Below are positions 52,631-55,749 of a DNA stretch of 64,000 bases, piece after piece. Within the stretch, counting starts at the first letter, position 1. Each line of letters begins with the position of its first letter. This DNA comes from Chryseobacterium sp. StRB126 (lineage in GTDB: Bacteria > Bacteroidota > Bacteroidia > Flavobacteriales > Weeksellaceae). Both the position numbers and the translations under genes were made by a program. A model generated the notes under the pieces. The model saw only the letters and a list, made by a program, of their open reading frames with translations, searched no databases and was not told where the DNA came from. The stretch lies in the NCBI RefSeq assembly GCF_000829375.1, contig NZ_AP014624.1, forward strand, positions 1 through 64,000. The letters are read 5' to 3'.

Positions 52631-52849
52631 AAAGATTTATGCAATACTACAAATATAAGTAAAGGTCTCTATCTAGAAAACTTTTGAATTATTTTATGCC
52701 TGAAATTTGGTCTTCGCAAACATCCCCTTTTAGCAAAATACTCCCCTTATTCAACAAACTATAGTATAAAGCATACAAAAACATCTACAACCTACTATAT
52801 TTCATCTACATAAGGATGAAAAAACAGATTTTTTTATAATGTAATTTCC

Positions 52850-52882
52850 TACATTTGTGATATAATTTTCGCGAAATTATAT
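52850..52882 (+). promoter_or_regulatory. Promoter and inverted repeat of peptide gene 1
   Basis: A perfect -7 box TACATTTG (52850-52857) is followed at once by the inverted repeat ATATAATTT-TCGCG-AAATTATAT (52860-52882). The repeat covers the likely start site and its centre lies about 51 nt before the ATG. No TTG was found at -33. It may be an operator or a 5'-end stabilising hairpin. Confidence 0.6.
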
Positions 52883-52921
52883 AGATTAAAACTTAACTAT
52901 TAACATCAAAAAAACAAAGTC

Positions 52922-53083
52922 ATGAACAAGAAAAATCCAGTGCTGAAAAATGCACAAAAATTAGGAAGAGAGCAACAAAAATCAGTTATGGGAGGAGCAA
53001 TCGCCGGCAGAAGATGCTGCGAATGGGATGACGTAACAGGAAAATGTTTCATCTGGACATGCGACAGATGTATGTGTCCATAA
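52922..53083 (+). CDS. Double-glycine-leader six-cysteine peptide 1
   Basis: This is a 53-residue open reading frame. The leader MNKKNPVLKNAQKLGREQQK... ends in a Gly-Gly at 24-25 and has Leu at -12 and Val at -4 relative to the cut, as in class II bacteriocin/GG leaders. The predicted 28-residue core starts AIAGRR and has six cysteines (32, 33, 42, 47, 50, 52) in the pattern CCEW-x8-C-F-I-W-T-C-x2-C-x-C-P. The gene has its own promoter, inverted repeat and terminator, and a paralogue 453 bp away. No C39 protease, ABC exporter or modifying enzyme is in the window. Bacteriocin-like precursor is my best guess; an OMP-targeted or metal-binding peptide is possible. Confidence 0.8.
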   Translation: MNKKNPVLKNAQKLGREQQKSVMGGAIAGRRCCEWDDVTGKCFIWTCDRCMCP

Positions 53084-53092
53084 AACCTTAAA

Positions 53093-53126
53093 GGCCGTTT
53101 CTACGATTTGTGAAACGGCTTTTTTA
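53093..53126 (+). terminator. Terminator of peptide gene 1
   Basis: GCCGTTTC (53094-53101) pairs with GAAACGGC (53112-53119) and is followed by TTTTTTATT. It begins 11 bp after the stop codon. Confidence 0.88.
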
Positions 53127-53301
53127 TTATATTGTCACCTATTCCCTTCAATATAAAAATTTTATTTCTCATATTCCATGAGCTATAATAAATTTCATTT
53201 TTTATTTAATAAAATTATGAAGGGACTATCTATTTCAATACAACTTATTATATTTCATACCTATAATGATAAAATTTTATTTTTAAAACAAAATAAATTC
53301 A

Positions 53302-53335
53302 TATATTAGTGATATAATTTTTCATAAAATTATAT
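53302..53335 (+). promoter_or_regulatory. Promoter and inverted repeat of peptide gene 2
   Basis: TATATTAG (53302-53309) is a one-mismatch version of the -7 box. The inverted repeat ATATAATTTT-TCAT-AAAATTATAT (53312-53335) follows at the same spacing as in copy 1 and ends 40 bp before the start codon. Arms are kept while the loop differs, which suggests that the structure is selected. Confidence 0.55.
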
Positions 53336-53374
53336 TGTTTAAAACTTAACTATTAACATCAAAAAATCAAAATC

Positions 53375-53539
53375 ATGAACAAGAACAATCCAGTGCTTAA
53401 AAACGCACAAAAATTAGGAAGAGAGCAACAAAAATCAGTAACCGGAGGAATTGGTATCAACAGACCAAGATACTGCTGTGAGTGGAATGATGATGGAAGC
53501 TGCAGAATTTGGACATGTGGTAACTGCGTTTGCCCATAA
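53375..53539 (+). CDS. Double-glycine-leader six-cysteine peptide 2
   Basis: This 54-residue peptide is a paralogue of the preceding one. The leader MNKNNPVLKNAQKLGREQQK is nearly identical and ends at Gly24-Gly25. The core IGINRPRY... has cysteines at 34, 35, 43, 48, 51 and 53 in the same pattern, CCEW-x7-C-x-I-W-T-C-x2-C-x-C-P. Leader conservation is stronger than core conservation, as in precursor families where the leader is read by shared machinery. It ends 36 bp before the convergent barrel gene and shares a terminator with it. Confidence 0.8.
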   Translation: MNKNNPVLKNAQKLGREQQKSVTGGIGINRPRYCCEWNDDGSCRIWTCGNCVCP

Positions 53540-53546
53540 AAATAAT

Positions 53547-53577
53547 AAACCTGCTTCTCCAAGCAGGTTTTCTTTTA
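53547..53577. terminator. Terminator of peptide gene 2, probably bidirectional
   Basis: AACCTGCTT (53548-53556) pairs with AAGCAGGTT (53561-53569) and is followed by TTCTTTTA on the plus strand. On the minus strand, T-rich sequence follows as well, so it may also end the barrel transcript, whose stop codon lies inside the region. Confidence 0.85.
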
Positions 53578-55749
53578 TCTTGCTCTGTTTTCTTCTTCTG
53601 TTCTCAGAATTTCTTGTGCCTGATATTTTGATCCCCCAAAAACATAGCTCAACGAGAAGAAAAAACGGCTGCTATCCCACCAATGCCTCAAACGGTTGTC
53701 CATAATCTGTTTATGTCTGAACTCCAGACTCTGGTCATTGGAATCAAAAATATTATTATACCCCAACTTTGTATTCAGTTTATTATCCAACCATGATTTC
53801 TGAAATGATAGGTCGATACTATAGCGTGGTTTAATAATGTAGAGACTATTTCCAGTTTTGGATTCATAATTTGCAAATAGATTAACTGTATATCCTTTGG
53901 GTAAAGTAAAGACCTGGTTCAGCCTTATTTCATAATTATAGATATCCAGTGCAAAAACTTCATCAAGATAAGGCCTGAATTCATCATTATAATATCCTGT
54001 GAACTGTCCCGTTATATTCCACCATTTTGTAATTTTTACAGGAAAACTCGTTTCAAGAACAGCAAAATTCCTATATGGAAGATTGGTTCCAAGGTATTCC
54101 AATACATTGGTTTCTGGATGATATATGGGATAGCGGGTCATTACATCTTTTTCTTTTCCAATGCTGAAACTTGTAATCCAGTTTTTATACCGGTAAGTTG
54201 CTTTAATTTGGCTGGTAAAAGAAGGTAACAGATAAGGATTTCCTATCCAATAATTCAAAGGGCTAAAGTAAAAACGAAATGGATTGAGTTGTGAAAAAAC
54301 AGGTCTTGTAATTCTCCTGCTATAGGAAAAGGAAAGTTCATTAGATTTATTAAAAGAATAACTTGCACTGAAAGAAGGCAGCCATTCAAGGTAATTTCTT
54401 GAAACAATAGAATCAGCAGTAACAGCATCTGAAATACTCTGTGTATTTTCAGCTCTTATTCCTGCATTGATCTGAAGTTTTCCAAATTTTTGTCTGTAAG
54501 CAATATAACCCGCCATTATTTTTTCCCTGTAAGAGAAAATATTGCTTCTTGAAGGATCAAATACAAACTGATTATTCGTTGATAAAGTATCATATCTGAT
54601 ATTATTGTTAGTGAGTGAATAACTGTACTTAAATCCTGCTTCTATATCTGCATTTCCCATTTTTTGAGAGGCATCAACCTGTCCAGTATAAATTTCAATC
54701 TCATTAAAAAGGTCAGATTTCCAATAGGATAATAATTCAGAAGATGGCTGCTCTCTATTGATAAATTCATCTTTTTGCTTGTTTTTTACAGCAAGATAAT
54801 TGCCTAAGAAGGTTAATTTAAATCCTTTATTTTGAAACGAATAGTCTGTAGTCATCCCCAGATTATTCTGTGAATAGTCTATTGGATTTAAGCTTTCGGT
54901 ATTAAAAATAACATCTGTTTCACTTTTATTAGTGGTAAATAATGATCCTGTCCGAATACGGTCATTTTTTCTAAAATTACTTCTCAGATTTAGGCTCAAC
55001 CTATTTTTAGCATTTAATCTAAAATCAGCTCCTGCCTGAATACTATATACACTTCCTATATCTTTTTGATTGGTATTGGTACGCATGACATTCGTGTTAG
55101 CCAATCGCTGTAAAGCGCTGTACCGATAGCTGGAAATTCCATCATTTAATCCCATCTGTATAGTATAGGTAACTTTTTCAGTATTGTATGACAGATTTAA
55201 AGCATTTTCTCTGTAATTAAACTTATTGATGTATAGATTTCCATTATAATTCCCTTTCCAACCGAGATTGGTGTTCTTTTTTAATCTGATATCAATAATT
55301 CCTTTAAATTCTGCATCATATTTTGAAGATGGATTTGTATTCACCTCTATAGATTCTACCATTTCAGGAGACAGGGACAGCAGGTAAGCCTGCAGCTCCT
55401 GATTACTCATTACTGTAACCTTTCCATTTATAAAAATAGCCGGAGATATTCTTCCCCCAATAAAAATTCCTCCTTCCTGATCGATGGTGACTCCTGCTGT
55501 TTTTCTTAAAACATCAAGCAGGTGGGTGGATGTTTTAAAGTCTTTATTTCCGGAAACTGCCATTACCAAATTTCCATCATTAAGCTTTATCTTTCGTGAA
55601 GTGGACTGAATAACCACTTCAGAAATAGATGTTGCAGACGTTTTAGTCTCAGTTAGAGAATCTGCACCTTTTCTTTTTGCAATATCCTGTGCTTTTCCCA
55701 AAAAAGATAAGAATAACAGCAGTAACAGGAGCCATAATTTGACAATCAT
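53575..55749 (-). CDS. TonB-dependent-receptor-like outer-membrane barrel
   Basis: The 724-residue protein is of the same OMP_b-brl_3 family as the pair at 36430-41013 but clearly different in sequence. It has a signal peptide (cleavage after LGKAQ) and then a plug-like domain with LLDVLRKTAGVTIDQEGGIFIGGR, INGKVTV and VNTNPSSKYDAEFKGIIDIRLKK. The rest is a barrel ending in a short polar tail. It lacks a carboxypeptidase-like domain. The gene is convergent with the two peptide genes and lies downstream of a membrane AraC regulator. A ligand cannot be deduced. Confidence 0.9.
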   Translation of the reverse strand: MIVKLWLLLLLLFLSFLGKAQDIAKRKGADSLTETKTSATSISEVVIQSTSRKIKLNDGNLVMAVSGNKDFKTSTHLLDVLRKTAGVTIDQEGGIFIGGRISPAIFINGKVTVMSNQELQAYLLSLSPEMVESIEVNTNPSSKYDAEFKGIIDIRLKKNTNLGWKGNYNGNLYINKFNYRENALNLSYNTEKVTYTIQMGLNDGISSYRYSALQRLANTNVMRTNTNQKDIGSVYSIQAGADFRLNAKNRLSLNLRSNFRKNDRIRTGSLFTTNKSETDVIFNTESLNPIDYSQNNLGMTTDYSFQNKGFKLTFLGNYLAVKNKQKDEFINREQPSSELLSYWKSDLFNEIEIYTGQVDASQKMGNADIEAGFKYSYSLTNNNIRYDTLSTNNQFVFDPSRSNIFSYREKIMAGYIAYRQKFGKLQINAGIRAENTQSISDAVTADSIVSRNYLEWLPSFSASYSFNKSNELSFSYSRRITRPVFSQLNPFRFYFSPLNYWIGNPYLLPSFTSQIKATYRYKNWITSFSIGKEKDVMTRYPIYHPETNVLEYLGTNLPYRNFAVLETSFPVKITKWWNITGQFTGYYNDEFRPYLDEVFALDIYNYEIRLNQVFTLPKGYTVNLFANYESKTGNSLYIIKPRYSIDLSFQKSWLDNKLNTKLGYNNIFDSNDQSLEFRHKQIMDNRLRHWWDSSRFFFSLSYVFGGSKYQAQEILRTEEENRAR

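Follow-up and report, generated by a model that had tools for sequence, protein, structure and literature searches.

Two tandem six-cysteine, Gly-Gly-leader precursor genes of Chryseobacterium sp. StRB126 and candidate machinery for their maturation in trans

Our analysis confirms that two short open reading frames on the + strand of Chryseobacterium sp. StRB126 are real genes, each encoding the precursor of a small six-cysteine peptide behind a Gly-Gly leader. They lie in a stretch of 64,000 nucleotides (positions 1 to 64,000 of contig NZ_AP014624.1), which is called the window below. The reading that we consider best, and that is probably correct, is that the products are exported, disulfide-bonded mini-peptides which are matured in trans and work like the bacteroidetocins. 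The features of the locus, in window positions, are as follows.

52846..52892, + strand: conserved upstream element of gene 1 (model match; alignment of 39 upstream segments)
52850-52857, + strand: promoter-like TACATTTG of the gene 1 element, running into the inverted repeat
52860-52882, + strand: inverted repeat ATATAATTT-TCGCG-AAATTATAT of the gene 1 element
52922..53083, + strand: precursor gene 1 (ORF1), 53 aa (ORF translation, relatives, omega); leader 52922-52996, six-Cys core of 28 residues 52997-53080, then stop
53090..53123, + strand: terminator-like hairpin, then T run, after gene 1 (fold of 53084-53130, -16.3 kcal/mol)
53298..53345, + strand: copy of the same upstream element before gene 2 (inverted repeat 53312-53335)
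53375..53539, + strand: precursor gene 2 (ORF2), 54 aa (ORF translation, relatives, omega); leader 53375-53449, six-Cys core of 29 residues 53450-53536, then stop
53547..53570, + strand: terminator-like hairpin, then T-rich stretch, after gene 2 (fold of 53540-53585, -12.4 kcal/mol)

Direct reading of both + strand ORFs bears out what the preliminary description had claimed of them: they are 53 and 54 residues long, their Gly-Gly leaders are nearly identical (25 residues each, unlike at 2 positions) with Leu at -12 and Val at -4, and six cysteines fall within about 28 residues, the cores comprising 28 (AIAG...CP, ORF1) and 29 residues (IGIN...CP, ORF2). The Gly-Gly end and the hydrophobic residues at -4 and -12 that mark C39-exported GG-leader peptides are found in both. 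The cores share the layout CCEW-x(5-6)-C-x-I-W-T-C-x2-C-x-C-P. The strict pattern proposed earlier holds as a shared motif, but its spacing has to be corrected: six residues separate CCEW from the next cysteine in ORF1 (CCEW-DDVTGK-C) and five in ORF2 (CCEW-NDDGS-C), and the 7-8 given before are right only when counted from CC. A 43-codon ORF (window 53178-53309, +) sits between the two precursor genes.

Since each gene has an upstream element of its own and is followed by its own hairpin and T-rich stretch, each looks like a separate transcription unit. The model of the upstream element, 47 positions long, was derived from 39 upstream segments, those of both pair genes among them, and finds only these two genes in the StRB126 genome at E <= 1 (best 150 of 10340 candidates scored). 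Its promoter-like box is likened by us to the -7 box consensus of Bacteroidetes. Across the 39 segments 87% of the cells of the inverted repeat are paired, compared with 38-57% when slid. Covariation of the repeat was no better than in shuffles (the score was reached by 148 of 500), and with a score inside the shuffle range the reading as a covarying RNA hairpin was rejected. Judged from its sequence, the element is conserved and promoter-proximal, and it may be either a DNA operator or an RNA hairpin.

The neighbours of the pair encode an arginine-deiminase-family protein and an outer-membrane beta-barrel protein (OMP_b-brl_3; window 53575-55749, -). Beside the pair no immunity, export or modifying gene and no metal-linked gene was recognised, in agreement with the earlier remark that exporter, protease and modifying enzyme are absent nearby. 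A scan of named genome contigs yielded 57 Chryseobacterium loci, and the arginine-deiminase-family gene is kept at the same side in all of them. The OMP_b-brl_3 gene was matched in 41; the remaining 16 have other neighbours, and many of these carry in its position what we read from the sequence as an apparent citrate synthase. As it was matched at no more than 41 of the 57 loci, the OMP_b-brl_3 gene was ruled out as a partner of the pair.

The peptides themselves are conserved more strictly. All 57 loci contain the six-Cys motif, the fetched stretches hold one leader-defined ORF in 45 loci and two to four in 12, and an identical copy of the part of ORF2 that starts at YCCEW and runs to its end recurs in 15. 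Searched with a leader pattern in which cysteine is not required, these loci returned 75 ORFs, 74 with exactly six cysteines and one with four. With ORF2 as the query, relatives at E <= 1e-6 were found in 125 of the 173 genomes of the genus. An 18-sequence profile matched 153 of 320 genomes of the family at E <= 1e-5, five of which are outside the genus and all weak (3e-7 to 6e-6), and 39 genomes in a draw of 395 from the order, where the one good match outside the genus (G363, another family, 3e-11) is a four-Cys relative.

Pooled over 600 sequence pairs, omega comes to about 0.14 in the leader and 0.09 in the core, the latter being a rough figure because the synonymous sites of the core are near saturation (pS 0.63). 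These values indicate that selection on both leader and core is purifying. The 90 coding sequences behind them were chosen by pattern (GG or GA, CC, two more Cys), and the invariance of the GG, CC and Cys columns among them is partly by construction; the Cys-free count of 75 ORFs is without such bias. The preliminary description had staked its claim on the existence of homologues and on a Ka/Ks that is not high, and on both counts the numbers came out in its favour. Its statement that the cores are less conserved is true between the two paralogues but does not hold across species. Strict conservation of the core across species is unusual for kin-directed bacteriocins, and a core that hardly varies speaks against a rapidly evolving weapon aimed at kin as well as against a strain-specific signal; it would fit a conserved target.

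A genome search for more peptides with the same leader, proposed together with the first description, placed the two genes in a group of about sixty. The 18-position leader model NF047798 gave 64 rows at E <= 10 in the StRB126 genome, 29 of them over its cut-off. Leaving out the four weakest and one with an internal stop, and adding ORF1, results in a set of 60 precursor-like ORFs of this leader type, one peptide of which was trimmed to an inner Met. Their total cysteine number is one (1 peptide), two (2), four (24), five (2), six (29) or eight (2), that is, even in 57 and odd in 3. Random draws from the pooled composition (2000 trials) gave 30 even peptides on average and 44 at most, compared with the 57 observed. 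Disulfide-bonded peptides would show such an excess of even numbers.

The sister sequences indicate which cysteines may belong together. A second tandem pair of the StRB126 genome (4922910 and 4923291; 4922910-4923425, locus L052) has four cysteines: CC, C and the terminal CP of the core are kept, and W-I-G-P-G replaces W-T-C-x-x-C. A search by the leader alone gave 44 distinct relatives, of which 29 have four cysteines, 15 have six and none has five; they come from 41 fetched stretches picked from profile hits (40 stretches were picked by hand from these hits, and four yielded no peptide under the leader pattern). The single four-Cys ORF at the pair's own locus (L139, one of the 75) lacks exactly the two W-T-C-x-x-C cysteines. 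The fact that these two are missing together in at least two lineages suggests that they form one bond. The disulfide reading put forward earlier gains support from both the cysteine parity and this paired absence. The profile search met the four-Cys sister family in numerous genomes of the genus, with E-values that mostly lie around 1e-20 to 1e-17.

The StRB126 genome has two C39 genes. One of them is part of a locus about 0.9 Mb from the pair, which contains the following genes (genome positions).

948235-950424, - strand: C39-peptidase ABC exporter gene (C39 and ABC domains)
950769-952274, - strand: VKOR-thioredoxin fusion gene, 502 aa (VKOR and thioredoxin domains)

The two genes belong to a minus-strand run which also includes a HlyD adaptor, two NF047798 precursors that flank the exporter gene, and grasp-with-spasm enzymes with their own precursor. 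Cys15, His84/His89 and Asp106 are present in the C39 domain of the exporter and two CxxC motifs in the fusion, among them the expected catalytic residues. The SPASM protein (TIGR04193) and the ATP-grasp protein (TIGR04192) score above their cut-offs and adjoin the fusion gene. The preliminary description had concluded that the machinery must act in trans, and candidates for it, C39-ABC, HlyD and VKOR-thioredoxin, are thus available in one locus. The second C39-ABC gene, at 4157022, could be the pair's exporter instead. It is the own C39-ABC gene of a class I lanthipeptide-like locus (L050, 4150350-4159227), which also has an OMP_b-brl_3 protein, an NF038153 precursor matching the NCBI class I lanthipeptide leader model, and 1031-aa and 408-aa proteins that we read as LanB- and LanC-like.

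The distribution of the remote genes was compared with that of the peptides. The fusion is present in 162 of the 173 genomes of the genus and absent in 11; leader hits at E <= 0.01, counted among the best 49 candidates scored per genome, are likewise present in 162 and absent in 11, and the two groups of 11 share nine genomes (Fisher 1e-11, kinship ignored). Of the 162 genomes that have the fusion, 125 contain the pair's family; of the 11 that lack it, none does. An orthologue of the exporter is absent in 10 of the 11 fusion-less genomes (best match 50% identity or less) and was found at 87-100% in 13 of 13 other genomes tested. The proposed search for C39 and HlyD exporters therefore led to one whose presence tracks the leader peptides. 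There are four exceptions: G069 has four leader hits without fusion or exporter orthologue, in G004 the exporter occurs without the fusion, G030 combines the exporter with a weak match to the fusion and lacks a leader hit, and G137 has exporter and fusion with no leader hit at E <= 0.01 (weak profile match). The co-loss of fusion and leader peptides may represent few events in related genomes.

Following the best reading, each gene would be transcribed alone and give a precursor composed of the 25-residue leader and the 28-29-residue core. The remote C39-peptidase ABC transporter (948235-950424) would recognise the leader, cut after Gly-Gly and, together with the HlyD adaptor, export the core. 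The membrane VKOR-thioredoxin fusion (950769-952274) would then oxidise the cysteines to three disulfides; the two cysteines of W-T-C-x-x-C are predicted to be bonded to each other or at least to form a redox unit. The same remote machinery would serve about sixty precursors of the genome. What is observed are the ORFs, their leaders, conservation, synteny, co-occurrence and cysteine parity; cleavage, export, oxidation and this service in trans are inferred, with the candidate exporter as the putative enzyme of cleavage and export. The peptides of the pair would most probably act against bacteria or on the envelope, broadly and in a conserved manner, as the bacteroidetocins do; the antibacterial role is our leading guess, and the target is guessed. 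In favour of the best reading is the leader pattern common to the 60 precursor-like ORFs, two of which flank the exporter gene. Against it, ORF1 has no match to the NCBI leader model and ORF2 is below its cut-off. Structure support is also absent: the AlphaFold model (18-row alignment) is of low confidence (pLDDT 57.8, pTM 0.26, weak hairpin 33-37/43-47), and a PDB sequence search returned no match at E <= 1.

One could argue that the exported cores are a conserved density or identity signal which is sensed by the producer, as GG-leader/C39 export serves pheromones too, the dedicated conserved upstream element stands only at these two genes in the StRB126 genome (best 150 of 10340 candidates), and an immunity gene was not recognised adjoining the pair. 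However, no sensor kinase or receptor is in conserved linkage, the OMP_b-brl_3 gene having a match at just 41 of the 57 loci, and the cores of strain-specific pheromones vary, unlike the CCEW core, which is nearly invariant over many species. We regard such a signal as rather unlikely. It is quite improbable that the cores are thioether-containing or otherwise enzymatically modified by the SPASM maturase and the ATP-grasp protein beside the exporter, even though both proteins exceed their cut-offs and adjoin the fusion gene: the grasp-with-spasm system has its own precursor (PF14406 match, L049:11676-11876), whereas the pair has no PF14406 match, and disulfides explain the even cysteine numbers and the paired absence more simply. 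The closely spaced C-x2-C-x-C at the C-terminus, as read directly, could point to six cysteines that bind a metal such as Zn or Cu, be it for uptake, storage or protection, but such a function is very unlikely given that a VKOR-thioredoxin-type oxidase co-occurs with the peptides, that the sister peptides lack C-x2-C with the rest kept, and that no metal-linked gene was recognised adjoining the pair; nothing came up in favour of the metallophore-like option of the preliminary description. The notion that the ORFs are not genes, or are decaying copies, can be discarded in spite of their shortness, the absence of a Pfam family and a TAA inside the match of one relative (G048), as it is refuted by selection and synteny (omega about 0.1; synteny and six-Cys motif at 57 of 57 loci).

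The bacteroidetocins, on which the best reading is modelled, are proposed class IIf bacteriocins, which kill Bacteroidales. In the parts of the source on which we draw (PMC6671954), they are described with a leader of 15-16 aa and a core of 42 residues with four cysteines in A and B; the GG peptide is encoded in an adjacent four-gene region together with a C39-type ABC transporter, a thiol oxidoreductase and a membrane protein, and an immunity protein is lacking there. The pair is similar to them in its Bacteroidota host, GG leader, several cysteines, C39-type ABC exporter, thiol oxidoreductase and lack of an immunity protein. It differs in its 25 aa leader, its 28-29-residue core and its six cysteines, and its candidate exporter and oxidase are in trans and not adjacent genes. 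Membership in class IIf, as far as these parts define it, was rejected because clustered genes and the corresponding leader and core sizes were not found.

The kind of peptide is already known, as NCBI models the leader class under NF047798 (leader_Chryseo, a Chryseobacterium leader model named 'bacteriocin-like protein'). The pair shares with this model the genus and the K-x-R-x-x-x-K-x-x-x-G-G leader layout, and differs by a longer N-terminal leader extension; ORF2 scores 16.5 bits (cut-off 23.5) and ORF1 is not reported. The CCPGW family putative bacteriocin (NF047792) resembles the pair in its GG leader, its Cys-rich core with CC and its similar length, but the core motif of the pair is CCEW, not CCPGW, and ORF2 reaches 20.6 bits compared with a cut-off of 80. 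No Pfam or NCBIfam model accepts the pair, the Pfam search giving no family match up to E 10, and the class IIa bacteriocin motif YGNGVxC is absent from both ORFs on direct reading. Within what we take from PMC8939145, the grasp-with-spasm peptides of Bacteroidetes are comparable in having maturation enzymes beside the same exporter; they form a different precursor family, and up to E 10 PF14406 did not match the pair. Chryseobasin, a DUF692 RiPP, is likewise a Cys-containing RiPP of Chryseobacterium, and its conserved C-terminal CPACGMG motif, as given in the corresponding part of PMC10214503, is absent in the pair.

Full-text searches, mostly outside the subscription journals, brought up no paper that deals with these six-Cys peptides or with a single exporter for dozens of such precursors, and both the core family and the layout of one exporter with many precursors appear undescribed in the literature searched. 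This leads us to a wider proposal, which we advance tentatively although it is well within the possible: in each Chryseobacterium genome, a single C39 exporter and a single VKOR-thioredoxin oxidase would act as a general line that secretes and folds some sixty disulfide-bonded mini-peptides with unlinked genes. This set would be the bacterial equivalent of a defensin-like repertoire, and the CCEW pair would be one of its conserved members, passed on by vertical inheritance. If this is true, a genus that occurs in soil, in water and in hospitals uses one line of export and oxidation for dozens of small peptides rich in cystine, which standard annotation in part overlooks. Such a set would amount to a natural library of stable disulfide scaffolds and would offer a clean genetic test, as one exporter or one oxidase would govern the whole set.

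An RNA element was also encountered at related genes. The best 12 matches to the Rfam DUF805b RNA (RF02914) in the StRB126 genome (loci L155-L166) have E <= 7.6e-4, 7 of them over the gathering score, and 10 of the 12 are followed after 18-24 nt by a gene for a Gly-Gly-leader precursor. These 10 include 950690-950724(-) and 948182-948214(-), both in the exporter locus, and one upstream of the lanthipeptide precursor; the pair in the window is without DUF805b upstream. A full-text literature search found no paper on 'DUF805b'. The positions of the matches suggest that this orphan element may control secreted peptide genes, and if so, it would be linked to peptide secretion. Finally, further Gly-Gly-leader Cys-rich precursors form tandem arrays elsewhere in the genome: seven copies in two groups about 2.6 kb apart at 3416687-3420472 (L051) and four copies at 4789942-4790724 (L067).
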